A stretch of DNA of 51,882 nucleotides from Pelagibius sp. GTDB taxonomy: Bacteria > Pseudomonadota > Alphaproteobacteria > Kiloniellales > Kiloniellaceae. The notes under the pieces were generated by a model. The model saw only the letters and a program-made list of their open reading frames with translations, did not search any database and was not told where the DNA came from. The stretch's first letter is position 1; the number at the start of each line of letters is the position of its first letter. The translations under genes and the position numbers were made by a program. This document shows positions 19,212 through 50,844 of the stretch, piece by piece. The stretch spans positions 1 to 51,882 of the forward strand of contig NZ_JANQOI010000006.1 in the NCBI RefSeq assembly GCF_028289705.1, given 5' to 3'.

Positions 19212-20804
19212 ATGACAGTGGTTGCGGAAAAAGTGCCGGAGGGCGGGATCTCTGACGAGCCGATGCGGGCTTGGCGGCGTGCCGGGCTGCTCTTCGCGCT
19301 CGCCACCCTGCTGCTCTTCGGACTGTACTTCGAAACCCTGGCGTCCATGGTGCGGGTTTGGACCACGTCGGACACCTTTGGATATGGTTTCCTGGTACTG
19401 CCGGTGGTCGTCTATCTCGCCTATCAGCGCCGCCACCACCTCGCGCAACTGACGCCCAGGCCGTGCTTCTGGGCCCTCGTCTGGGTCGCCGGAGCCATCG
19501 TTCTGCACCTGGTCGGCAGCATCGGCAACGTGCTGTTATTCCAACAACTTGCCCTCGTCGGCCTCTGGCAGGGTCTCTTTGCCCTGTTCATGGGTTGGGC
19601 GGTGGTGCGGCAGATGATCTTTCCGCTGTTCTTCCTGATCTTCGCGGTGCCGATGGGGGCTGAGATCGTTCCTCTGTTGCAACGGATTACCGCCGACATC
19701 ACGGTCTTTCTGTTGCGCGCCTCGGGAATGCCGACCTTCCTCAGCGGTGTGTTGATCGAAATCCCCTCCGGCAGTTTCGTCGTGGCCGACGTTTGCTCAG
19801 GGGTGCGCTTTCTGATCACCGCGCTGGTTTTAGGCACCCTGGCGATCCACCTCTTTTTCCGCTCCTGGCTGCGGCGCGCCGCGTTCCTGCTGCTCTGCCT
19901 CGTGGTTCCGATCCTGGCCAACGGACTGAGAGCCTACGGCATCATTATGCTGGCGCATTGGAGCGACTACCGCGTGGCGATCTCCGTCGACCACCTTGTC
20001 TATGGCCTGATCTTCCTGACCTTGGTCTTGATGATTCTGGTGGGACTGGGTGCCCTGTTCCGGGATCATTGGCCTGGCGAAGAGCCGGTACCGGCAGCCG
20101 TTGCATCGGCTACGGGCGTCCGCCTCTCCTCAAGCGTCGCCGCCTTCGCCTTGGCGGTATTGCTTCTGGGCGGCGGCAAAGTCTGGACCCACGGGGTGAC
20201 GGCACCGCCGGACAACGCGGGCCCCATCGAGTTGGCTGCTCTCCATCCTGGCGGTGAGTGGGTCCTGGACGGTGGAACGCATGCCGACTGGCAACCACAT
20301 TTTCGTGGAGCCGATTCCCAGTTCCTGCGGTCGTTCAATGCGCCCGATGGGGAGGTTGTCCTGTTCGTCGCCCACTATGCCTATCAGCGCGATGGCCATG
20401 AGATCATCGCAGGCGGCAACAGCTTCGTCGGCCGCGGTACCGGTCGGCAGGTGACGCGGTTTGAGCAGACCGAAGTCGCCTTGGCAGACCGCCGCTGGGC
20501 GGTGCGTGAGATCCTCGTTCAGACGGTTCAGGGGCCGCGTCTCATCTGGTTCTGGTACGAGGTCGGCGGCACGCAGACCGCCTCTGCGGTCGTCGGCAAG
20601 TTGCTCGAGATTTGGCACACCATCAGCGGCGGCTCCCGGTCCGCCACCGCCTTCGCGCTTTCGACGGCACCGGCCGACGACCTGCGGGCATCCCGCGCCC
20701 GGTTGACGGCTTTCCTGAGCGCATTGGAAGAGACACAAAGTCTCACCACGGCGACTCTGATCCGGCCCGAGGCCCTGGAAGGGACCGCTTCATCGCGGAA
20801 CTGA
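19212..20804 (+). CDS. xrtA: Exosortase A with fused C-terminal EpsI domain
   Basis: This 530-residue protein has eight or more helices over residues 22-290, then one more helix and a periplasmic EpsI-type domain at about 310-500. The catalytic triad of exosortases is complete: Cys195 in VADVCSGVRFL, Arg240 in ILANGLRAYGI and His261 in SVDHLVYGLIF. The enzyme recognises the C-terminal PEP motif of exported proteins, cuts them in the inner membrane and probably passes them to a glycan or lipid acceptor. The sequence context of the Cys and Arg motifs fits the XrtA subtype, as do the surrounding genes. A substrate with a matching tail is encoded at 48956-49804. A sigma-70 promoter precedes the gene. 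Confidence 0.95.
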   Translation: MTVVAEKVPEGGISDEPMRAWRRAGLLFALATLLLFGLYFETLASMVRVWTTSDTFGYGFLVLPVVVYLAYQRRHHLAQLTPRPCFWALVWVAGAIVLHLVGSIGNVLLFQQLALVGLWQGLFALFMGWAVVRQMIFPLFFLIFAVPMGAEIVPLLQRITADITVFLLRASGMPTFLSGVLIEIPSGSFVVADVCSGVRFLITALVLGTLAIHLFFRSWLRRAAFLLLCLVVPILANGLRAYGIIMLAHWSDYRVAISVDHLVYGLIFLTLVLMILVGLGALFRDHWPGEEPVPAAVASATGVRLSSSVAAFALAVLLLGGGKVWTHGVTAPPDNAGPIELAALHPGGEWVLDGGTHADWQPHFRGADSQFLRSFNAPDGEVVLFVAHYAYQRDGHEIIAGGNSFVGRGTGRQVTRFEQTEVALADRRWAVREILVQTVQGPRLIWFWYEVGGTQTASAVVGKLLEIWHTISGGSRSATAFALSTAPADDLRASRARLTAFLSALEETQSLTTATLIRPEALEGTASSRN

Positions 20805-38011: not shown

Positions 38012-39946
38012 TCAGGTCCCGGTGGCCCGCTGGGCGCCGTTCGCAACGTCTGCCGTCGTGTGGACGTTGCTGAGGAAGGACTCGAACATGAGCAGCGACC
38101 AGATGGGAGGGCTGTGATCGCTGGCGCCGCTGGCGTGTTCGTCCAGCAGGCGCTGGATGAAGGCCGTGTCGAAGAGGCCCACCTGGTCCAGCATGCCGTC
38201 CAGCAGGCGCCGCCGGGTCGGCTCGCGCAGCGGCCCGCGGAACCACTTCGCGAGGGGGATGCAGAAGCCCATCTTCTCGCGATAGAGGATCTCTTGCGGC
38301 AGCCGGTCTTCCATGGCCTTCTTCAAGAGGTACTTCCCTTCGCGGGCCCTCAGCCGAAAGCTGGGGGGCAGCGTCGCCGCCCATTCCAAAAGCTGGTGAT
38401 CGAGCAGGGGGACGCGCACCTCCAGTGACGTCGCCATGCTCGCCCGGTCGACCTTGGTCAGGATGTCGCCGGGCAGATAGGTCTTCATGTCGGCATACTG
38501 GACCCGGTCGAGATGGTGTTCGACCGGCGCGTCCCTGATCGCCTCTTCCAGGACGTTCCTGGCATGGTAGCCCTGAAGGTCGCGGTGCATGCGCTGCGAA
38601 TAGAGGCGCCGGCGCAGGCGGTCGTCGAAAATCGAGACGCTGTGGAAGTAGCCTTCCACGCTGTCCCGCGCCAGGGCCTGCAGGGTCGATTTCGCCCGCA
38701 GCGGACGCGGCGCCCAATCGAGCTTGGGGTAGAGCCGGCCGAGCAGCGAGAAGACCGGATGACGCAGCGGACCGGGCAGCGTGCCGCGCACCAGCTCTTC
38801 GTAGTGATGCCAGCGGTAGCGCCGATAGCCGGCGAATCCCTCGTCGCCGCCGTCGCCGGAGAGCGCCACGGTCACGTTCTCGCGGGCCAGACGGCAGACC
38901 TGATAGGTCGGCATCGCCGAGGAGTCCGCGAAGGGCTCGTCGTAGAAATTCGACATGTCCTCGATCAGATCGAAGGAGTCCGCTGCGACCTGACGGGAGC
39001 GATGGTCGGTCCGCAGATGCTTGGCCACCATCTCGGCGAAGCCGGCCTCGTCGAAGTCCGGCACGTCGAAGCCGATTGAGCAGGTGTTCACCGGGCTTGC
39101 CGAGTGCTGGGCCATCATGCTGACGACGCTGCTGGAATCGACGCCGCCGGAGAGGAACGCTCCGAGCGGAACGTCGGCCATGAGGCGGATCCTGACCGCT
39201 TCGCTCATGCGCTCCTGCAGTTCGGCGCAGGCATCTCTCTCGTTCATGCGGTGATCGGCCTGGAAGGCGATTTCCCAGTAGCGCTGCGGGCGCGGCTGGG
39301 CGGCGCCGCGTCTCCACACCAGCGTGTGGGCCGGCGCCAGCTTACGCACGCCCTCGTAGATTGTCTTGGGGTCCGGCACGTAGCCGAAGGCAAAGTAGTC
39401 TTCGATCGCCCGGATATCGAAGCGCCGCTCCAGGCTGGGATCGCAGAGCAGGGCCTTCATCTCCGAGCCGAAGATCAGGCGTCCGTCGGGCAGGACGGCA
39501 TAGTAGAGCGGTTTGATGCCCAGCCGGTCGCGGGCCAGGAACAGGGTTTCCTTGTTGGCGTCCCACAGGGCGAAGGCGAACATGCCGCGGAAGCGCTTGA
39601 CGCAGTCCGGGCCCCACTCCTCCCAGGCATGGACCACCACCTCGGTGTCGCAGACCGTCCGGAACTGATGGCCGCGCTCGCTCAGCTCCCGCGCCAGCTC
39701 CTTGAAGTTGTAGATCTCGCCGTTGTAGACCACGCACACGCTGTGGTCCTCGTTGAACAGGGGCTGGTGCCCGCCGGCGAGGTCGATGATCGACAGGCGG
39801 CGATGGCCGAGGCCGATGCCTTCGGCCACATGAAAGCCGACACCGTCAGGTCCCCGGTGGACCAGGCTGTTGGTCATCGTGGTCAGCAGGTCGCGGTCGA
39901 TCGCGCGCCGCTCTCTGACGTCGAAGATTCCTGCCAGTCCGCACAT
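38012..39946 (-). CDS. Asparagine synthase-like amidotransferase, exosortase A system
   Basis: This protein has 644 residues. The start is set at ATG 39946 because removal of Met exposes Cys2 (MCGLAGIFD), the N-terminal nucleophile of class-II glutaminases; an upstream codon at 39967 would block it. The glutaminase domain covers residues 2-200 (RGPDG, YNGEIYNF, SEMKAL). The synthetase domain has the PP-loop LSGGVDSS at 265-272 and DGGDEGFAGYRRYRW. It probably transfers ammonia from glutamine to a carboxylate of a sugar such as a uronic acid, which fits the UDP-sugar dehydrogenase nearby. It corresponds to the amidotransferase typical of exosortase A clusters. Confidence 0.93.
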   Translation of the reverse strand: MCGLAGIFDVRERRAIDRDLLTTMTNSLVHRGPDGVGFHVAEGIGLGHRRLSIIDLAGGHQPLFNEDHSVCVVYNGEIYNFKELARELSERGHQFRTVCDTEVVVHAWEEWGPDCVKRFRGMFAFALWDANKETLFLARDRLGIKPLYYAVLPDGRLIFGSEMKALLCDPSLERRFDIRAIEDYFAFGYVPDPKTIYEGVRKLAPAHTLVWRRGAAQPRPQRYWEIAFQADHRMNERDACAELQERMSEAVRIRLMADVPLGAFLSGGVDSSSVVSMMAQHSASPVNTCSIGFDVPDFDEAGFAEMVAKHLRTDHRSRQVAADSFDLIEDMSNFYDEPFADSSAMPTYQVCRLARENVTVALSGDGGDEGFAGYRRYRWHHYEELVRGTLPGPLRHPVFSLLGRLYPKLDWAPRPLRAKSTLQALARDSVEGYFHSVSIFDDRLRRRLYSQRMHRDLQGYHARNVLEEAIRDAPVEHHLDRVQYADMKTYLPGDILTKVDRASMATSLEVRVPLLDHQLLEWAATLPPSFRLRAREGKYLLKKAMEDRLPQEILYREKMGFCIPLAKWFRGPLREPTRRRLLDGMLDQVGLFDTAFIQRLLDEHASGASDHSPPIWSLLMFESFLSNVHTTADVANGAQRATGT

Positions 39947-39966
39947 GGTTTCCCAGTCCCAAAACA

Positions 39967-40016
39967 ACGCAACCGGACAGAGGTTACGGCCGGGCCGTAT
40001 CCTCCTTTGGTTGCGT
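39967..40016 (-). terminator. 50-bp nested inverted repeat; terminator or attenuator
   Basis: ACGCAACC (39967-39974) pairs with GGTTGCGT (40009-40016), GAGG (39980-39983) with CCTC (40001-40004), and TACGGCC (39985-39991) with GGCCGTA (39993-39999). On the minus strand the hairpin is followed by TTGTTTT, so it may end the FemAB operon (stop at 40134) or attenuate the amidotransferase gene, whose start is 21 bases further on. One arm contains AAAGGAGG, a perfect Shine-Dalgarno-like sequence with no start codon behind it. Confidence 0.55.
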
Positions 40017-40133: not shown

Positions 40134-41183
40134 CTAGGCCAGTTCCCGGGAGACGAGTGGGCCCAGCCGATTGGCCACCAGCAGCGGCAGACGCTTCCAG
40201 GTGGCGACCATCAGGGCATACTTGGGATTGAGGGGGTTGATCTCGGGGATCTCATTCAGCTTCAAGAGGGCGTGCTCGTAGTAGAGCGGCTCGGCCTCAA
40301 AGCCCCAATGCTTCTTGAACGCGAAGGAGCCGGTCCCGACCTTGCTGCGGCCGAAGTCGTAGGTCTTGACGCCGGCTTCGCAGGCGCGGCGCATCACCTC
40401 CCAGTACATGAAGTCGTTGGCCGCATGGGTCCGCGCCGCCTTGCAGCCGCCGCCGTAGTAGGGCAGCACCTCGTCGCGAAAGAAAAACGACAGCACGCTT
40501 GACAGAGGTTGTCCGTCCAGCAGGACGGTCAGTACCTCGCAGGACTCCGCGAAAACCGACTTCAGGCAGTCGAAGTAGCGCCGGCTCAAGACCGGCGTGC
40601 CGAGGTTGCGCACGCTTTCGGCGTAGAGCGGATAGAGCTGCCCGACGTCCTTGTCGATCCTCCCCTCGAGGCCGCGCTTGATGCCTTTGCGCACCATGGC
40701 CCGCTGCTTGCGGGGGATCGCCAGCAGGGCCTTCTCCGGGTCGGGGTCGATCGCCTTGCGGAAGGTCACATAGGTTTCCCGGTTGCAGGGCCAATCCGGG
40801 TGCAGCGGCTCCCGCAGGCGGTACTCCACCCGCTCGGCCCGCAGATCGCGGGCCAGATCGATGGCGGCGGCATCGAGGGCGGCCAGGGCCTCGGCGGAGG
40901 TGGTCAGCGGCCCGCCGTAAACGCAGAAGCCGTTCGATATCAGGCTGTTCCCGAATATCCGCCCGCGCACGTGGGTAAGCGGGAGAACCCCCGTAATCGC
41001 CCCGCCCTGACGGGCCAGCAGGAAGTGGCAGCGATGGCCGAAGCTCTCCTCGATCACCGCCTTCCAACCGGAGAGATGGAAGAAGGTTGCCTTGGGATGG
41101 GCCGTTACGAAGCCGTCCCAGGCAGAATCCTGTCCGTCTTCGAGACGGTCGATTTGGAGCCCGTTGGCAGTGTCGCTTGGCAT
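40134..41183 (-). CDS. FemAB-like protein, XrtA/PEP-CTERM system-associated
   Basis: This protein has 349 residues from ATG 41183. The frame is open much further, but the upstream part only shadows the deacetylase gene. ATFFHLSGWKAVIEESFGH near residue 30 and FFFRDEVLPYYGGGCKAARTHAANDFMYWEVMRRACEAGVKTYDFGRSK near the C-terminus are the GNAT-type aminoacyl-transfer fold of FemABX proteins. Members of this subfamily occur only with exosortase A systems and are suspected to add amino acids to the glycan or its lipid carrier; no reaction is proven. It overlaps the deacetylase gene by 79 bases, an unusually long coding overlap. Confidence 0.9.
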   Translation of the reverse strand: MPSDTANGLQIDRLEDGQDSAWDGFVTAHPKATFFHLSGWKAVIEESFGHRCHFLLARQGGAITGVLPLTHVRGRIFGNSLISNGFCVYGGPLTTSAEALAALDAAAIDLARDLRAERVEYRLREPLHPDWPCNRETYVTFRKAIDPDPEKALLAIPRKQRAMVRKGIKRGLEGRIDKDVGQLYPLYAESVRNLGTPVLSRRYFDCLKSVFAESCEVLTVLLDGQPLSSVLSFFFRDEVLPYYGGGCKAARTHAANDFMYWEVMRRACEAGVKTYDFGRSKVGTGSFAFKKHWGFEAEPLYYEHALLKLNEIPEINPLNPKYALMVATWKRLPLLVANRLGPLVSRELA

Positions 41184-42073
41184 ACGTCCCCATACTCGCT
41201 CGAAAGGAATACCCGGTCCATCCGGTCCCAGTGGAAATCCCGCAGCAGGGCCCGCAGCCGACGCTCCATGGCGCGGAGATTGACATAGTGCCGGAACCGC
41301 GACCGCAGTGGCACGCCTTCGAAGCGCGGCTGATCCGGATCCACCTCCCAGGGATGGAAGTAGAAGATGGTGGGCTGCCCGTCGCTCTGGCGGATGCGCC
41401 GCTGGCTCCAGCGAAACCAGGCATAGGGCAGCAGCCGGAAGTATCCGCCGCCGCCGCCCGGCAGGTTTCGGTTGAACAGCTTCAGGGTGGAGATCGGGAT
41501 CTCCAGGAAGTCGTGCCCCGCGATCGGCCGATAGGCAAAGCGGGAAGCCTCCGGCATGCCATAGTGATCGTGCTTGATGGGATAGATGCTGGAACTGTAG
41601 CTGTGGCCCTCTTCGGCGAGGACGTCGAAGGCCCAAAGCGATCTCTGGTCGATGGAGAAGCTGGCGGCCCGGTAGCCTTTGACTTCCTGGCCGCCGATAT
41701 CCTCCAGCAGGCCCTTGGTCCTGCGCACGTCCTGGCGGAACTCTTCGGGGCTCTGGCTATGGACCCGAACGTGTTCGTAGCCGTGGCTGGCCAGCTCGTG
41801 GCCGCCGGCGACGATTTGCCGAACGACGTTGGGATAGCGTTCGGCTATCCAGCCCAGGGTGAAGAAGGTGGCGGTGACCTGCCGCTCGGCAAAAAGGCCG
41901 AGCACCCGGTCCATGTTGCGCTCGACACGGCAGGGCAGGCTCTCCCAGTCCGCGCGTCTAACGCAGTCGGCAAAAGCCCCGACCTGGAAGTAGTCTTCCA
42001 CGTCGACGGTCATTGCGCCCGGCATTGCCCCCGGCATCTGTCCGGTCGCGGCAGCGGTCTCGGTGCCTGCCAT
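41105..42073 (-). CDS. Polysaccharide deacetylase, exosortase A system (NodB fold with DUF3473)
   Basis: This 322-residue protein has NodB motif 1, MTVDVEDYFQ (Asp24 and Asp27), and motif 2, HELASHGYEHVRVH, with His97 and His101 as metal ligands. Motif 3 is GYRAASFSI, and FYFHPWEVDPDQP is the late His motif. The C-terminal DUF3473 part has the LPGGGGGYFRLLPY stretch. It would remove acetyl groups from N-acetyl sugars of the polymer. No signal peptide is visible, so it may act on cytoplasmic lipid-linked intermediates. About 40 residues beyond the family core overlap the FemAB gene. It is the second gene of the ATPase-deacetylase-FemAB operon. Confidence 0.92.
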   Translation of the reverse strand: MAGTETAAATGQMPGAMPGAMTVDVEDYFQVGAFADCVRRADWESLPCRVERNMDRVLGLFAERQVTATFFTLGWIAERYPNVVRQIVAGGHELASHGYEHVRVHSQSPEEFRQDVRRTKGLLEDIGGQEVKGYRAASFSIDQRSLWAFDVLAEEGHSYSSSIYPIKHDHYGMPEASRFAYRPIAGHDFLEIPISTLKLFNRNLPGGGGGYFRLLPYAWFRWSQRRIRQSDGQPTIFYFHPWEVDPDQPRFEGVPLRSRFRHYVNLRAMERRLRALLRDFHWDRMDRVFLSSEYGDVCQATLPTGSKSTVSKTDRILPGTAS

Positions 42074-42200: not shown

Positions 42201-43157
42201 CTAGCCTTCCTGTTCATAGGGATTGCGGAAGTCGACCACGCGGTCGGACTCGCCTTTAGGCTCCGCCTCGGCGTCGGGATCGCTCTCCAGCTCCAGCGCG
42301 TCGTCGGGACGGTCCTGCGCGTCGATGTCGAGCGACAGGCCGTTGGCGTCGAACTTCATGTCGCTGATCACCAGGCGGACGTCGTCCAGGTCGACCGCGT
42401 GCTTCTCCTCGATGAAGGCGTGCCAGAGCAGGCGGTCGCAAAGGTTGTTGATGAGGCGCGGCACGCCTCTGGTTTCCCGGTGAATGGCCGCAAAGCAGCC
42501 GTCGGCGAAGCTGGGATCGTTGTTCCAACCGACCTTCTTCAGGCGGTAGAGGACATATTGCCTCAGCTCATCCTCGCTCAGCGGATTGAGGTGGTGAATG
42601 GCAACGATGCGCTGGCGCAACTGTTCCAAGCCGTTGCTCGCCAGCTTCCTGCGGAACTCCGGCTGGCCGATCAGGAAGACCTGCAGAAGTGGCCGGTTCT
42701 GGTGATAGATGTTGGAGAGCATGCGCAACTCTTCCAACGCGGAGATCGGCAGGCCCTGCGCCTCGTCCACGATCAGGATCGCCCGGGCGTTGCGGCGCTG
42801 GGTGTCGAGCAAAAAAGCCTCCAGGTCGCGGAAGACCGAGGCCTTGTCGGCACCTCTCTGGCGCAGGCCAAAAGCGGAGGCGACCATGCGCAGGAAGCTG
42901 TCGGCCTCGAACTGTGTGCTTGCGATGTTGGCGGTGACGGCGCTGCTCTTGGGCAGACGGTTCAGGAAGTAGTCGATGAAGACCGTCTTGCCGGCCCCGA
43001 TCTCGCCGGTGATCACGACGAAGCCCTCGCCCTTGCTCAGGCCGAAGCTCAGATAAGACAGCGCGCGGCGGTGCGACTCACTGCGAAAGTAAAACCTGAG
43101 ATCCGGCGTCAGGTTGAAGGGGTATTCCTGAAGATTGAAGAAATCGGTGTATCTCAT
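42201..43157 (-). CDS. Exosortase A-associated AAA ATPase (ExeA-like)
   Basis: This 318-residue protein has MRYTDFFNLQEYPFNLTPDLRFYF, the typical start of the ExeA/PEP-CTERM ATPase family. Walker A is GEIGAGKT (residues 51-58) and Walker B ILIVDEAQ (127-134). RQRIVAIHHLNPLSEDELRQYVLYRL and GVPRLINNLCDRLL form the AAA lid and sensor-2 region. The last 60 residues are acidic. It is cytoplasmic; its exact job in the PEP-CTERM system is unknown, but by analogy with ExeA it may assemble a secretion or export complex in the envelope. It heads the minus-strand operon with the deacetylase and FemAB protein. Confidence 0.93.
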   Translation of the reverse strand: MRYTDFFNLQEYPFNLTPDLRFYFRSESHRRALSYLSFGLSKGEGFVVITGEIGAGKTVFIDYFLNRLPKSSAVTANIASTQFEADSFLRMVASAFGLRQRGADKASVFRDLEAFLLDTQRRNARAILIVDEAQGLPISALEELRMLSNIYHQNRPLLQVFLIGQPEFRRKLASNGLEQLRQRIVAIHHLNPLSEDELRQYVLYRLKKVGWNNDPSFADGCFAAIHRETRGVPRLINNLCDRLLWHAFIEEKHAVDLDDVRLVISDMKFDANGLSLDIDAQDRPDDALELESDPDAEAEPKGESDRVVDFRNPYEQEG

Positions 43158-43431: not shown

Positions 43432-44508
43432 TCATTCTTCCTCGCCGCGGTGGACCGCCTTTCGGACCAGGTGGGGCAGCAACAGGGCAAAGGGCATCCG
43501 CAGGTAGTGGGCGCGCGCGTAGAGCAGCCAGCGGGCAAGGGGGGTCAGGCGGCCGTCGCAGCTCTTGTGGTCGGGCAGCAGCGCCCTATCGAAGAGGCTG
43601 TCAAAGAGGGCGCGCCTGGCGGTGCTCGGCTGCCATCGCTCAGCCGCACTCAGGGCCTTCGGCGGAATGGGGACGTCCAGGAGCCGCTGCAGATAGCGGA
43701 AGGTGAGATAGAGCGGGCCGGTGAGCCCCAGGTCTTCGGCGCGCCGCGGCAAGGCATCCCAGAACCCGGGCTCGGCCCCGAAATGGCGCAGCAGGTCACT
43801 GAGATCGAGCAGATCCCGCAGGCCCCGGTCGAACTCGCCGTCGTTGAACAGGTGGACGGCACTGTGCAGCACCATGTCGGTCGGCGCCAGGATGCGCAGC
43901 GCGGCAACATCCAGGGTCCGGCTGGCGGCCACCAGGGGTTCGGGTTCGACCGACGCGCGCGCGGTCGGCTGCACGATGGTGTGGTGCACGTCGAGCACGG
44001 TCTGCCGGCGGTCGTGGCGCAGGGGGGGGATCTGATGGGTCCATTGCCGGTAGTAGCGCTGGTCGTAGGCATCGGTTACGTCGGTGAGCCATTCTGACCT
44101 CAGCAAGGCCTTTTCGACTGCGGCAATACGGTCCTTGGGCACCATGAAGTCGATGTCGGCGAACAGCCGGCCGCGGGCCGGCGGCAGATCGGCAAAGACG
44201 TAGGCCGCCCCTTTCAGCAGCGTGATAGGGACCTTCAGATCGGCCAGCACCCGGGTGACGCAGATCACCTCCCAGCGCACGTCGCGGACATGCTTCAGGG
44301 CCAGTGTCCTGGCTGCCAGCAGGTGCTGGAGCGGCCCCTCGGGAACCTCCGCCAGGCTGCCGCGGTCTTCCAGCAGAAAGGCGATGCGGGCCAGCACGCC
44401 GGAGCGCCTGGCCTGGCGCACGACCAGGTCCCACTGCTCGAGGGACAGCGCGCGGAAGTCATCGGGACGCCGTAGGAGATTCAGCAGCAGGTGGCGCCGG
44501 TCGCTCAT
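43432..44508 (-). CDS. Nucleotidyltransferase-family protein of the HPr-rel-A cassette
   Basis: This protein has 358 residues. The ATG at 44508 overlaps the kinase stop as ATGA, so the two are translationally coupled; a longer open frame upstream merely shadows the kinase. The nucleotidyltransferase core is ITLLKGAAYVFADLPPARGRLFADIDFMV (residues 95-123), with Lys99-Gly100 and the acidic pair Asp118 and Asp120 of the polymerase-beta-type fold. Flanking helices resemble the uncharacterised nucleotidyltransferase family PF14907. Such proteins occur beside HprK-related kinases and PqqD-like proteins. The substrate is unknown; it could adenylylate a peptide or protein. Confidence 0.8.
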   Translation of the reverse strand: MSDRRHLLLNLLRRPDDFRALSLEQWDLVVRQARRSGVLARIAFLLEDRGSLAEVPEGPLQHLLAARTLALKHVRDVRWEVICVTRVLADLKVPITLLKGAAYVFADLPPARGRLFADIDFMVPKDRIAAVEKALLRSEWLTDVTDAYDQRYYRQWTHQIPPLRHDRRQTVLDVHHTIVQPTARASVEPEPLVAASRTLDVAALRILAPTDMVLHSAVHLFNDGEFDRGLRDLLDLSDLLRHFGAEPGFWDALPRRAEDLGLTGPLYLTFRYLQRLLDVPIPPKALSAAERWQPSTARRALFDSLFDRALLPDHKSCDGRLTPLARWLLYARAHYLRMPFALLLPHLVRKAVHRGEEE

Positions 44509-45455
44509 CCGCTCGATGTCTTCGGTCCAACCTCGCGCGCCGGCGCGGCCGCGGGTTCCAGCGCCGCGAAGACTTCGCGGGCTTCGGCCAGATCGCTGTA
44601 GGTGAAGTCGTAGGAGGCGCAGCCGTCGACCACCTTGGAAAGGAGGTCGAAGCCCTGGCGGCCGTGGATGCTGTAGTTGAAGGCGTTGCGCCCGATCTCG
44701 ATGACGGTGTCCGCCTTCGGCCGCGGCACCAGGGCGGTCGCCGCATCCTTTTTGTAGCTCGGGAAGATGACCCAGGCCGGCTGCGCCGTTTCGCCGATCC
44801 GTGCCAGGCTGTCCGCAGGCGCTTTCAGCAGTGCGACTGTGCCCTTCACGGTGTCTTCCGAGCGCCGGCTCAGCCTTGCCGAGGGAATGAGCCCACCGAT
44901 GATATCGATGGACTGGTTCTTCAGGCTGATGGGTCGCGCCAGGGCGGTAACCCGGCCGTCCTCGAGAGACAGCAGTGCCAGTTCGTCGGACAGCAGCCGC
45001 CAGCCGTTGTTGACGAGATAGGCGGTGAGGGTGCTCTTTCCGGAGCCCGGCGCCCCCGGCAGGATCGCTGCGAAACCGTCCTTCTCGATAGTGGCGCTGT
45101 GGATAATGAGATACTGGTGGGCGTGCCCTCCGATGCACCAGTTGAGCCCCCATTCCATCATCGGCAGGGCCTGGTCCAAAGGCAGCGGCTTGAAGATCCG
45201 CAGGCCGTCGAACTCGAAATTGACCTGCCGGCGCAACCAGCGCCTTGGACCCAGCGGCTGGGTCAGGGCGACATGGAAATCCGCAAAATCCCCCTCCGCT
45301 TCGATGGGATAGTCGGCATAAAGCAGTGAGATGCCATCGACCACGGCGGGAATGCGGGTGCGGATGCGGTTGAGAAAGGGCCCGGTCCAGAGATTGAGGC
45401 CTGGCCCTGCCAGCCGGGCGACCAGTTCCTGCCGTGACCAATCTGAGAGCTTCAC
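44505..45455 (-). CDS. HprK-related kinase A
   Basis: This protein has 316 residues from the GTG at 45455, which has AAGG eight bases upstream; the frame is open to 45551 but without family-like residues. The P-loop is LPGAPGSGKST (residues 132-142) and the HPr-kinase-like acidic motif is WRLLSDELALL (152-162). EWGLNWCIGGHAHQYLIIHSATIEKDG before the P-loop is characteristic of the HprK-related kinase A subfamily. There is no HPr protein or sugar phosphotransferase gene here. It should phosphorylate, or otherwise use ATP on, an unknown protein or peptide of the cassette. The nucleotidyltransferase follows through an ATGA overlap. Confidence 0.85.
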   Translation of the reverse strand: MKLSDWSRQELVARLAGPGLNLWTGPFLNRIRTRIPAVVDGISLLYADYPIEAEGDFADFHVALTQPLGPRRWLRRQVNFEFDGLRIFKPLPLDQALPMMEWGLNWCIGGHAHQYLIIHSATIEKDGFAAILPGAPGSGKSTLTAYLVNNGWRLLSDELALLSLEDGRVTALARPISLKNQSIDIIGGLIPSARLSRRSEDTVKGTVALLKAPADSLARIGETAQPAWVIFPSYKKDAATALVPRPKADTVIEIGRNAFNYSIHGRQGFDLLSKVVDGCASYDFTYSDLAEAREVFAALEPAAAPAREVGPKTSSG

Positions 45456-45609
45456 CGCGTACCTTGGACCCGTAACTCTACGCACATTGACCGCCGCGCG
45501 GCGGCCGGACCCCGGGCCCGCAAGAGTGCGGTGGGCGAAGGCCGGGTGCAAATCGAAAATTCCCCTGGGTCCTGAGGGTTCGCTGCCGGCGCCCGATCAG
45601 GCGCTGGGG

Positions 45610-45942
45610 TCAGCCGCTCTGGCCGCTCTGCTCCGATGCGGCGACGGCCTCGACCAGGCCAACGCGCTCGAAGCGCTCGATGGCGCGGGCGACCCATCTC
45701 TGCAGGCGCGAGTCCGCATCGGCCTCCAGCGTTTCCGCTAGGTGCCGGGTGATCGTCGCCTCGCTGGCCGGTGCCTGTTGCAGGCAGCGCAGCGTCTCAG
45801 ACATGTAAGGATTGAGCTTCATCGTGTCGCCGGAGAGATCATCGTAAACGACGATCTCGTCATCCCAGGCGCGCCAGCACCAAGTGTCCTCGCGCTTCAA
45901 GCGCCATATCCTGGCGTCGGATGGATCAGGAATGTCGGACAA
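45610..45942 (-). CDS. PqqD-family peptide-binding protein of the HPr-rel-A cassette
   Basis: This 110-residue product starts at TTG 45942 (start uncertain). The PqqD fold is recognisable: a strand pair from TWCWRAWDDEIVVYDDLSGDTMKLNPYMSETLRCL, then helices to IERFERVGLV. In PQQ and many RiPP pathways this fold binds the leader of a precursor peptide and brings it to the modifying enzyme. It lies 154 bp upstream of the kinase gene and 46 bp after the Tat-exported protein on the same strand. It closely fits the PqqD-type protein described with HprK-related kinase A. The likely client in this window is the Tat protein (inference). Confidence 0.8.
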   Translation of the reverse strand: MSDIPDPSDARIWRLKREDTWCWRAWDDEIVVYDDLSGDTMKLNPYMSETLRCLQQAPASEATITRHLAETLEADADSRLQRWVARAIERFERVGLVEAVAASEQSGQSG

Positions 45943-45988
45943 AACGCTTCGGAGCCCCCATGACGCCGGGCGCCGCGCCAGATACGGC

Positions 45989-46747
45989 CTAGCCGCGGTC
46001 GTTCAGCTCGTCCAGGATGTCCCGCAGACCGAAGGGATCGCTGTAGATCATGTCGATCACCAGATCGGCGATCTCCTGGTGCGAATAGCCGTACTGTTCG
46101 CGGCCGAACTCGCAGGCGTTCAGATAGGCGGCCGAGCACTGCGGCAGAAGATCCGAGCTGGAGTCGTGCCACAGCGCCTGCATCATGGTGGCATTGGGAT
46201 CGGAGGTCAGGCCGTTGGCAAAACAATCGGCAAAGGACGTGCCGAAGGGCGGCGAGTCGAGCCCGGGATAGTCCTCAAGGTCATCGATGTAGTTCTTCGC
46301 CTTGCGCCGTCTGGAGCGCCAGTTGGACGGCCTGTAGTTCTTCAGCCAGGTCCGGTAGTTCTTCAGGGCATTGATGCTCGGCACCGAATAGTCGTAGCAC
46401 TCGTAGGGTTCGTAGTAGCTGTAGTGGATCGGGTTGCAGGGCCCGAGCATGATGTAGTTGGCGCAGCGGTCGGGATTGTCGCGCCAATAGCTGGGCCTGC
46501 GGCCACGGCAGCTGTAGGAGACCGTCTGCGAGGCGTTGCCGGAATTCATGCCCGAGTGCGAGCAGAAGGTCGCGAGGGCGGGGCGGCTAGACAGGGTCAG
46601 GATCACCGGCGCGCCAGCCAGGCCGCCGGTCAGGAATCGGCGGCGGGCGTCGCGCTTGGCGCGATCCCCATCGGGTGCCCGACCCCGATCCTGCGGCGCC
46701 GTGTCCGGGCCGCCTGCCTCAATACCTGAGCGTTCCTTATCCGCCAT
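45989..46747 (-). CDS. Tat-exported cysteine-rich protein, putative HPr-rel-A client
   Basis: This 252-residue protein has a long polar n-region (residues 1-34), a twin-arginine motif RRRFL (35-39), a hydrophobic core GGLAGAPVILTL and a likely cut after ALA (59). The mature part has eight cysteines (62, 80, 95, 104, 117, 175, 204, 212) and begins with CSHSGMNSGNAS, followed by CRGRRPSYWRDNPDRC. This pattern (Cys, Ser-Gly, Ser-Gly-Asn, then Cys and a Pro-x-Tyr-Trp) is ordered and looks conserved. Tyrosine is abundant. I recognise no enzyme. As first gene of the cassette and its only exported member, it is the natural candidate substrate of the kinase/PqqD/nucleotidyltransferase set. Confidence 0.75.
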   Translation of the reverse strand: MADKERSGIEAGGPDTAPQDRGRAPDGDRAKRDARRRFLTGGLAGAPVILTLSSRPALATFCSHSGMNSGNASQTVSYSCRGRRPSYWRDNPDRCANYIMLGPCNPIHYSYYEPYECYDYSVPSINALKNYRTWLKNYRPSNWRSRRRKAKNYIDDLEDYPGLDSPPFGTSFADCFANGLTSDPNATMMQALWHDSSSDLLPQCSAAYLNACEFGREQYGYSHQEIADLVIDMIYSDPFGLRDILDELNDRG

Positions 46748-48899: not shown

Positions 48900-48955
48900 A
48901 TAATAATGTCACAGGTCGATTATCCAGGTAGGGCAGGTAACCGTTGCAGGGACGT

Positions 48956-49804
48956 ATGAGGGCACTGACTCGCACTGCGCAGGCAATCGTTTTGGGTCTC
49001 TTGGCCTGGGCGGGAAGTCTTGCGGTGCCTGCGGCAGAAGCCGCGATCATCAATCAGTTCGAGTACGACCTGTGGAGCCATCCCGACGGCGCCCTGGCGC
49101 CGCCGCCCTATGGCCTGCGCATCGACGGGATCGAGTGGTACGCCACTGGCGGTGCCAGCGGGGGCAACAGCGATGCCTGGACCTTCGATTTCGACCACCC
49201 GCTGGCCGAGATGCGGGCGGTCTACACCGTCAACGACGGCGTCAACGACGACACCTTCCGCATCTTCGGCACCGCCATCGGTGGCCGGGACATCTCCGGA
49301 ACCAACTACGACGGGCCTCCGGTGCTGGTCGATATCGACTTCACCTACACCGGCTTCGACGGCCAGAACGATTTCCACGATCCGGAGATCCATGTGAACG
49401 ATGGGGCCGGCCAGGCCAGCACCAAGGGCATGGGGACGATCACGTTCCAGCAGCAGACCTTCGGCATTCAGGCCAACACCACGGTGAACCTGCTGGCCTT
49501 CGCCAACGGCTCCGGCAATCTCTTCAATTTTGACGTGGACCCGGCGCCGGGCCACCGCCTGAACGGCTATTGTGGCGGTGCCAACCCGCCCGCCTATTGC
49601 GGCATGCCCGTCGGTTGGGGGTGGCTGGCCTTGGCGGATGCCAACTTCAATCCGCACACCGCCTACCACACGTCTTTCCAGGACTTCATTTTCGTGAGCA
49701 ACAAGGTGCCTGTGCCGGAGCCGACGAGCCTCGCGATGTTCGGCACGATGTTGGGCACATTCTCCCTGGCTTCCTGGATACGCCGCCGGAAAAAGTCCCG
49801 CTGA
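48956..49804 (+). CDS. PEP-CTERM sorting-domain protein
   Basis: This protein has 282 residues from ATG 48956, with CAGGGA upstream. The signal peptide ends near AAEAA (residue 26 or so). The mature domain is Asp/Asn/Gly-rich and beta-like (WTFDFDHPLAEMRAVYTVNDGVNDD, FTYTGFDGQNDF). The C-terminus is a textbook PEP-CTERM tail: VPEPTS (253-258), a hydrophobic helix (259-275) and a basic end RRRKKSR. The exosortase at 19212-20804 should cut after the PEP motif. A sigma-54 promoter precedes the gene. It is the only PEP-CTERM protein seen in the window. The function of the mature domain is unknown, probably surface or matrix. Confidence 0.93.
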   Translation: MRALTRTAQAIVLGLLAWAGSLAVPAAEAAIINQFEYDLWSHPDGALAPPPYGLRIDGIEWYATGGASGGNSDAWTFDFDHPLAEMRAVYTVNDGVNDDTFRIFGTAIGGRDISGTNYDGPPVLVDIDFTYTGFDGQNDFHDPEIHVNDGAGQASTKGMGTITFQQQTFGIQANTTVNLLAFANGSGNLFNFDVDPAPGHRLNGYCGGANPPAYCGMPVGWGWLALADANFNPHTAYHTSFQDFIFVSNKVPVPEPTSLAMFGTMLGTFSLASWIRRRKKSR

Positions 49805-49902: not shown

Positions 49903-50844
49903 CTACTTCCAGCAGCCGACCTGGGCGATGTAAGGGCGGGCTTCGCTCAGGATCTGTGGTCTGGTTTGTGGGACCTGGGTGGCGTTTGTCCGGTAATCCA
50001 CCCCCTGGTTCTCGAGAAAGCCGAGCACGGTGTCCGTCGACAAGGCATAGCCTTCGTGCCGCACCGTTCTGCCGGTGGTTTCGAAGACCTTGACCGAGTT
50101 GATCTTGGCAAAGACCACGCCGATCACCAGACCGCCGCTGTCGAGCAGCGGACCGCCGCTGTTTCCCGCGCGGATGTTCCCCTTGAGGACGATGATCGGC
50201 AGGTTGTGGACGGTTCGGCTGCGGCCAACGACCTCGACGGCGGTGACGATCGGATTGAGGGGCACGAGCCCCTGGTTCGGGTAGCCGACCAGCGAAGCCT
50301 GCCCCATGGCGGAGCGGCCCCGGGCCCGGGTGCTGAACGCGGCCACCGCAGGGGGGCTGAGATCCGCCCGCAGCAAGGCGAGGTCTGCCGACTGGTCGAA
50401 AGCGATCTTCCTGGCCAGCACCATCTCTCCGGCCGAGGGCGAAATCGAAACCACCGCACAGTCGTCGACGACATGATTGTTGGTCAGCAGACTGCCGTTG
50501 GCGGCCACGAAGAATCCGGACCCGATGCCGGCGAGGCGCCGGCCCTCGACTCGGGGCTCCGACGGCTCCTCGAGCATGCGGCGGACTTTCTCGCGGCGCT
50601 CGCGCTTGATCCTTGCCGCTTCGTCGTCGCTGACCACGGCGCCCTCGCAATCGCCCGCCAGGGTTTCCTGGACCGTGCCGAGCGCAGGGTCGAAGCAGTT
50701 GACCACATAAGGACCCTCGGCCGCCGCGGTGGGCCGGGCCTGCGGTGTCCAGGAGATCGCCGCAAGGCAGGCCGCCGCCAGAAGCGTGGTCAGAGGCTTC
50801 CTTTTATTCGCGCGCGCTGTTTGAGCCACGTCAAGGTGTGCCAC
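49903..50844 (-). CDS. Periplasmic trypsin-like serine protease (S1C, no PDZ)
   Basis: This 313-residue protein starts at a GTG. The signal peptide runs through LTTLLAAACLAAISW to about residue 42. The catalytic triad is His124 (TNNHVVDD), Asp154 (QSADLALL) and Ser229 (RAGNSGGPLL), as in DegP/HtrA-type proteases. No PDZ domain follows; instead there is a short tail with a terminal cysteine (QVGCWK) and an extra N-terminal region with cysteines at 50 and 66. It is convergent with the PEP-CTERM gene, with a 98-bp gap. It may be an envelope quality-control protease; a role in processing the matrix protein is speculation. Confidence 0.88.
   Translation of the reverse strand: MAHLDVAQTARANKRKPLTTLLAAACLAAISWTPQARPTAAAEGPYVVNCFDPALGTVQETLAGDCEGAVVSDDEAARIKRERREKVRRMLEEPSEPRVEGRRLAGIGSGFFVAANGSLLTNNHVVDDCAVVSISPSAGEMVLARKIAFDQSADLALLRADLSPPAVAAFSTRARGRSAMGQASLVGYPNQGLVPLNPIVTAVEVVGRSRTVHNLPIIVLKGNIRAGNSGGPLLDSGGLVIGVVFAKINSVKVFETTGRTVRHEGYALSTDTVLGFLENQGVDYRTNATQVPQTRPQILSEARPYIAQVGCWK

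Follow-up and report, generated by a model that had tools for sequence, protein, structure and literature searches.

A Tat-signal protein encoded with lasso-tailoring-like enzymes in an exosortase A locus of Pelagibius sp.

Closest described systems

Tailoring guided by a RiPP recognition element (RRE; RiPP, ribosomally synthesized and post-translationally modified peptide) is known from small peptides, and the biology of exosortase/exopolysaccharide loci is little understood. This report concerns a four-gene cassette on the minus strand of a 51,882-nucleotide stretch of DNA from Pelagibius sp. (contig NZ_JANQOI010000006.1), which was analysed at its whole length and is named here the window. 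The cassette codes for a protein with a twin-arginine translocation (Tat) signal, a PqqD-like adaptor, an HprK-related kinase A and a PF14907 nucleotidyltransferase, and is found near exosortase A genes. We describe its gene content and catalytic residues, the linkage and co-occurrence of its genes across genomes, and the match between kinase lineage and class of Tat partner. On our analysis the best reading of the cassette is a trio of the lasso-tailoring type that would have a whole Tat-exported protein as its substrate and would work with neither lasso cyclase nor leader protease.

The precedent for the trio of adaptor, kinase and nucleotidyltransferase is the tailoring of lasso peptides, which was not named in the preliminary description of this DNA. 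According to the available sections of the Bsf study (PMC10368454), the kinase BsfK, with the residues H148, G163, G166, G168, K169, S170, D186 and D187, phosphorylates Ser3 of the core peptide. The RRE protein BsfB1, which works via the precursor leader, accelerates BsfK, and the cluster includes a nucleotidyltransferase. In pseudomycoidin, PsmK phosphorylates the C-terminal Ser and PsmN attaches a hexose to that phosphate, as stated in the available parts of PMC9266682 and PMC8498205.

The HPr-rel-A system of NCBIfam, whose family name implies a shared system of kinase and adaptor, is the other described relative. The window kinase (TIGR04352) and adaptor (TIGR04353) both pass its curated cut-offs, while the NCBIfam and Pfam scans made give the Tat partners no family. 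No reaction is stated in the available portions of the two NCBIfam descriptions. No paper on this cassette was found among those listed in the open-licence literature under the family names or combinations of terms, and a text search of the 2006 PEP-CTERM paper (PMC1569441) returned no mention of HprK or of a nucleotidyltransferase.

Enzymes of the cassette

A compact set of four minus-strand genes at 43432-46747, with an intact kinase P-loop and ATGA coupling between kinase and nucleotidyltransferase, had been proposed in the preliminary description, and all of these features were recovered: the four genes are in place and the kinase stop codon overlaps the initiation codon of the nucleotidyltransferase. 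The kinase open reading frame (ORF) spans 44505..45551 (minus strand). Its initiation codon is uncertain, the TIGR04352 domain beginning at ~45395 (364.1 bits, cut-off 200). The P-loop GAPGSGKST (45030..45056) is preceded by a His 21 residues ahead of its Lys (45099-45101) and followed by an Asp-Glu pair 17 and 18 residues past it (44982-44987), the spacing of His, P-loop and acidic pair found in BsfK. Among 140 kinases, 136 have the His at −21 and 132 have Asp-Glu at +17. In 78/140 Ala stands where BsfK has the first Gly of its set, and the second acidic residue is Glu, not Asp.

The best PDB profile matches of the kinase are HPr kinases (E 6e-4), and the genome carries two HPr genes. The earlier statement that HPr is absent therefore stands for the scanned proteins of the window and fails for the genome. 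An HPr-type regulatory kinase belonging to the phosphotransferase system, located here by chance, would account for such a likeness. We consider it hardly credible, as the window kinase reaches 16.3 bits with the HPr kinase/phosphorylase model TIGR00679 (cut-off 240), contig C191 carries a separate HprK-like gene with one of the HPr genes ~1.8 kb away, and the Tat-PqqD-kinase set is kept in many families (see below).

The adaptor gene (45610..45942, minus strand) starts with TTG and codes for a PqqD-family peptide chaperone, an RRE-like adaptor, recognized by TIGR04353 (60.3 bits, cut-off 35); with the general PqqD model of Pfam it stays at 20.6 bits, under the cut-off of 23.4. A profile match to the lasso protein TfuB1 (E 0.0041) is outscored by designed repeat proteins. 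The nucleotidyltransferase (43432..44508, minus strand; NTP_transf_5, PF14907 171.7 bits, cut-off 31.2) has the K-G...D-x-D motif that is invariant in alignments A3 and A7. Its AlphaFold model is confident (mean predicted local distance difference test score, pLDDT, 95.9) and matches the folds of 5uvd, TM1012, LnuA and ANT(2'')-Ia in the PDB with modest TM-scores, 5uvd being the best match (E 7.5e-4) and the only one at E 0.001 or better. Fold and D-x-D are those of the nucleotidyltransferase superfamily.

Tat-signal partners across genomes

The Tat gene (45989..46747, minus strand) codes for the proposed substrate, a protein of 252 amino acids. Its signal, RRRFLTGGLAGAPVILTLSSRPALA, displays the twin-arginine motif, hydrophobic stretch and AxA site of Tat substrates, and export is predicted from them. 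Eight Cys were counted after the signal, which is followed by C62-x-x-S65-G-x-x-S69-G-N-x-S...C80...PSYW and by a C-terminus predicted to be helical. Nothing matched the protein in Pfam or NCBIfam at E 1.

The sample comprised 398 genomes of the phylum, of which 61, the window's own included, have TIGR04352 over its cut-off. Comparison of kinase neighbourhoods, the check put forward in the preliminary description, bore out its expectation of a Tat gene beside the kinase: such a gene is adjacent at 53/61 loci, a partner is encoded somewhere in 59/61 kinase-bearing genomes, and a Tat gene is present in 78/80 further loci. An iterative profile seeded with the window Tat protein and run on the 61 loci (the window and 60 others) found 44 partners, the window counted, and reading of upstream ORFs yielded nine more (L032, L080-L082, L084-L088). 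A strict regular expression for Tat signals was discarded. It recovered 43/61 upstream slots together with 138 Tat-like ORFs elsewhere in 993 kb and thus misses signals, the profile and reading by eye having given 53.

Regular occurrence of kinase, PqqD and nucleotidyltransferase genes without the Tat gene was not found in these neighbourhoods. The clear exception is L090, with PqqD beside the kinase and the Tat gene absent from the locus. Among the eight loci lacking an adjacent Tat gene, L071 and L091 are truncated where their contigs end, while L050, L051, L057, L065 and L075 have neither Tat gene nor PqqD beside the kinase; a PqqD match at E 0.001 is nonetheless present in 7/8 of these genomes. 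In four of them (G022, G125, G069, G268) PqqD lies away from the kinase and is adjoined by a Tat protein with an SCxxSF-type end (L092, L095, L096, L097). In G173 the locus is split over contigs (L091), and the initial portion of the kinase gene is found with PqqD and an adjoining Tat gene (L093). G081 has a PqqD under the cut-off (34.2 bits), and its Tat, PqqD and kinase genes are all apart. At L048 the Tat-PqqD pair is oriented opposite to the kinase.

TIGR04353 exceeds its cut-off in 52/398 genomes, 49 of them kinase-bearing. G001 and G086, without a kinase over cut-off, have a sub-cut-off HprK-like kinase beside or fused to PqqD, and in G052 a match of about cut-off strength is embedded in a longer frame, the 6 kb examined there containing no kinase. 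The profile of class A Tat partners (A1; see below) matches at E 0.001 in 40/398 genomes, all 40 kinase-bearing, and in 0/337 others (Fisher 8e-40); because 25 of the 40 positive genomes supplied the rows of the profile, the informative part is the zero among the 337.

For the second set of loci the kinase alignment was searched against genome contigs, and the best 80 loci of at least 170 relatives were kept; hosts such as Massilia, Duganella and Methylomonas koyamae (L146, L150, L182) are included. The kinase was the route to both sets, which therefore overlap in kind. A deliberately lenient profile, with all hits read, placed a Tat-leader ORF upstream in 75 of these 80 loci, among them L169, which is cut at its 5′ end so that the mature part alone is visible. 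Of the other five, L142 and L157 have the Tat gene downstream of the nucleotidyltransferase, with two copies at L157, and L166 starts within a Tat gene. Conservation of the Tat-PqqD-kinase set extends over many families.

The mature parts of the Tat proteins vary widely and were sorted in classes. Class A partners have an SCWxSF end, and C71, C93, G159, C171, W172 and S174 are invariant past the signal in alignment A1 (25 of 30 rows; five were dropped). Class C (nine loci, family f6) ends in TC[FY]ASLQ. The window protein belongs to class B, with the consensus C-x-x-S-G-x-x-S-G-N-x-S...C...[ST]PGYW after the signal, from which it deviates by RPSYW in place of [ST]PGYW. The columns of S65 and S69 are invariant in the 42 rows of class B alignment A6, a figure biased by the choice of part of the rows for their Cys/Ser pattern (11 of 52 pattern-picked rows were dropped; L152, with unknown residues, was also left out of alignment A8). 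The columns were therefore recounted on all 79 partners without a class A or C ending, chosen without this pattern. Ser is found at the S65 column in 75/79 and at the S69 column in 77/79, Cys at the C62 column in 73/79 and at the C80 column in 67/79, while the two Arg of the twin-arginine motif are present in 76/79 and 77/79. On this column conservation we predict that the phosphate is accepted by Ser65 or Ser69, both in the stretch at 46541..46564 (minus strand).

A second pattern, [ST]C[WYFLI]xS[FLIM] within the last 26 residues, is found in 41/4747 ORFs of at least 80 amino acids, and 40 of the 41 are Tat partners, the very proteins from which the motif was derived. The profiles of classes A (A1) and B (A2) align over the Tat leader only, so that homology between the two classes is not established past it. 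The Cys and Ser-Gly pattern, which the preliminary description proposed to look for in every partner, marks the class of the window protein and is not universal, other classes ending in [ST]C[WYF]xS[FL].

Partner class follows the lineage of the enzymes. In a tree of 140 kinases, 115 of which have a class label (13 unclassified partners were left out of the count), the class changes three times over 115 loci, the minimum possible being two, while 100 shuffles of the labels gave no fewer than 36 changes (mean 40.9). In the PqqD tree there are five changes over 103 loci, against at least 33 after shuffling. Classes A and B co-occur in Burkholderiales, Chromatiales, Oceanospirillales and Cellvibrionales, and the match is therefore not a matter of host order alone. 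Such agreement is as expected from co-evolution of an enzyme with its substrate, and a binding partner would show it likewise.

The Tat protein might instead be co-produced with the kinase as a sensor or chaperone in the periplasm, the trio acting on another protein of the exopolysaccharide machinery. Adjacency alone does not distinguish substrate from partner, the mature parts of the Tat proteins differ widely, and homologues of XrtA-locus proteins of the window are encoded in the flanks of 35/60 and 27/80 loci. We give this possibility some weight and still find it unlikely. In four of the five genomes where PqqD and kinase are separated, PqqD stays with the Tat gene and not with the kinase (G081, where all are apart, is the fifth). 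Partner class tracks kinase lineage, some genomes have two or more Tat copies, and the RRE protein of the Bsf system acts via the leader of its precursor, as the available text has it (PMC10368454).

Several related arrangements were met during this survey. Two tandem class B Tat genes are present in one operon at L157:5668-7104, and the genome of L142 holds a second complete cassette (L230, G398); several Tat proteins may be modified in a single genome. A second Tat-PqqD pair at L213 (G185:C66) has no kinase match in the 6 kb examined. Kinases with a C-terminal PqqD fusion (L211:2547-4228, L217:2355-3940 and L219:2688-4392, in genomes G086, G050 and G395) adjoin a Tat-leader protein with SRPSYSRP-type repeats, an arrangement that is a separate relative of the cassette system. 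At L227:2515-5050 an ORF of 70 amino acids, with a Tat-like leader and a tail of ~15 residues, precedes a sub-cut-off HprK-like kinase and a nucleotidyltransferase and is possibly a short-peptide version. A TPR-sulfotransferase gene is found directly downstream of the kinase in 13/141 loci (e.g., L059:8134-9864), and a trypsin-like protease gene, whose product may process the exported protein, in the flanks of 33/141 (e.g., L074:7077-7898). Matches to GlmS in the loci of family f6 were considered as asparagine synthetases and this was ruled out, Pfam and NCBIfam giving GlmS and GlmU, which are probably genomic neighbourhood.

Proposed modification, locus context and known systems

The Tat protein is probably the substrate of the trio, with phosphorylation as the first step. 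Modification would take place in the cytoplasm, ahead of Tat export. The PqqD-like protein would bind the precursor, probably at the twin-arginine leader, and hand it to the kinase, which would transfer phosphate from a nucleoside triphosphate to a conserved Ser located towards one end of the mature sequence. In the window protein this would be one of the two Ser predicted above, and in other classes the Ser of the C-terminal SCWxSF. The nucleotidyltransferase would then add a second group onto the phosphate. The nature of this group is less certain: it could be a sugar, as reported for PsmN, a nucleotidyl or a phospho-sugar. The finished protein would be exported through Tat to the envelope, where exosortase A and the exopolysaccharide locus operate in this bacterium. 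A role in exopolysaccharide is a guess from genomic context. A further step, in which the Ser-linked phosphate-sugar would serve after export as attachment point to exopolysaccharide, making the protein an RRE-guided ribosomal anchor or primer, is a speculation that we rate as improbable.

A number of observations weigh against the proposal. Adjacency and lineage matching of this kind are also compatible with a binding partner or a regulator, and host taxonomy contributes to the tree match. No acceptor site is common to the mature parts of the different partner classes, 13/128 partners fit no class, and the structure model of the window Tat protein is of low confidence (pLDDT 61.7). Two kinase-bearing genomes, G214 and G189 (57% complete), have no partner, weak matches at E 0.08 and 0.03 not having been accepted. 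In the second set no partner is present in the operons of L180, cut by a contig end, and L192, where a transposase-like ORF (by eye) is upstream and an unlinked leader-only match is found elsewhere in the genome. At 12/61 loci of the first set the flanks yielded no nucleotidyltransferase; the contig ends too early in at least four of the 12 and not in some others. The glycosyl transfer by PsmN was not studied in vitro, according to the available part of a review (PMC9266682 or PMC8498205).

Kinase and nucleotidyltransferase might also build a different group, for example by nucleotidylation alone or by a route in which the phosphate leaves to give a ring or dehydro residue, Cys serving as partners. 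The nucleotidyltransferase retains D-x-D and its closest folds are nucleotidyltransferases, classes A and B have Cys close to the conserved Ser, and phosphate is a leaving group in kinase-lyase lanthipeptide enzymes, as the available portion of PMC10604976 describes. Pfam and NCBIfam scans found no lyase or cyclase among the four genes, and we judge this chemistry rather improbable.

If Tat-protein modification is as proposed, a covalent protein modification would be added to exosortase/exopolysaccharide biology, and RiPP-type genome mining would extend to full-length exported proteins. Parts known from lasso tailoring are tied here, in many Proteobacteria, to whole Tat-exported proteins without Pfam or NCBIfam names, and an enzyme system named in NCBIfam receives a concrete candidate substrate, a predicted residue and a genetic test.

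The cassette is followed on the same strand by genes of the exosortase A (XrtA) system. The next gene codes for the XrtA/PEP-CTERM-associated ATPase (42201..43157; TIGR03015 340.7 bits, cut-off 324.5), and the run continues with the XrtA system polysaccharide deacetylase (41105..42073; TIGR03006 449.1 bits, cut-off 276.2), a FemAB-type protein and the XrtA/PEP-CTERM amidotransferase (38012..39967; TIGR03108 1038.5 bits, cut-off 816.9). Exosortase A is encoded on the plus strand (19212..20804; TIGR03109 293.9 bits, cut-off 208), and chain-length, tyrosine-kinase and export genes of the system are also present. These genes identify the window as a genuine XrtA locus for exopolysaccharide. The kinase is found in 25/35 genomes with XrtA and in 36/363 others, and 36/61 kinase genomes have no XrtA match over cut-off. 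Beyond the cassette, the ORF at 48944-49804 has the C-terminus PVPEPTSLAMFG...RRRK, a tail that we take to be PEP-CTERM-like, and no NCBIfam match at 1e-8. A trypsin-like protease at 49903-50844, with a sub-cut-off best match to the MarP family, has no similarity at E 1e-8 to the trypsin-like protease of other loci. A scan of the window for a sigma-54-type promoter pattern gave 67 matches for 56.6 expected, which is no signal.

The locus belongs to the XrtA/PEP-CTERM system, yet no PEP-CTERM-like tail was seen by eye in its Tat protein. An ordinary lasso-peptide cluster or its remains, with the Tat gene a mere neighbour, was considered and rejected as very improbable. Its three enzyme kinds are the same as in kinase-bearing lasso clusters, and sulfotransferase genes lie near some members of both lasso clusters and the present system, as far as the published sections available describe the former. 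However, the window amidotransferase is the TIGR03108 enzyme and reaches 282.5 bits with the lasso cyclase model NF033535, against a cut-off of 525; the B2-type leader protease PF13471 has no match at E 0.001 in the genome (assembly 96.93% complete); and the precursor would be the Tat protein, well above 100 amino acids. Lasso-like loci with a sub-cut-off kinase were seen elsewhere in the survey; at L216 (G001:C93) a cyclase-like amidotransferase is encoded together with a PqqD-like ORF and two kinases of the HprK-like type.

PadeK of paeninodin, an HprK homologue, phosphorylates a C-terminal Ser comparable to that of the C-terminal SCWxS of class A; its substrate is a short lasso precursor, and the available part of a review leaves open whether the B1 adaptor helps. 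The lasso systems operate with cyclase and B2 protease, neither of which accompanies the cassette, whose precursor would be a whole Tat-exported protein. With PsmK/PsmN and BsfK/BsfB1/BsfN the cassette has in common the HprK-like kinase, the PqqD-type RRE and the nucleotidyltransferase, and the window kinase shares with the lasso kinases the H...GxGKS...DD/DE spacing.

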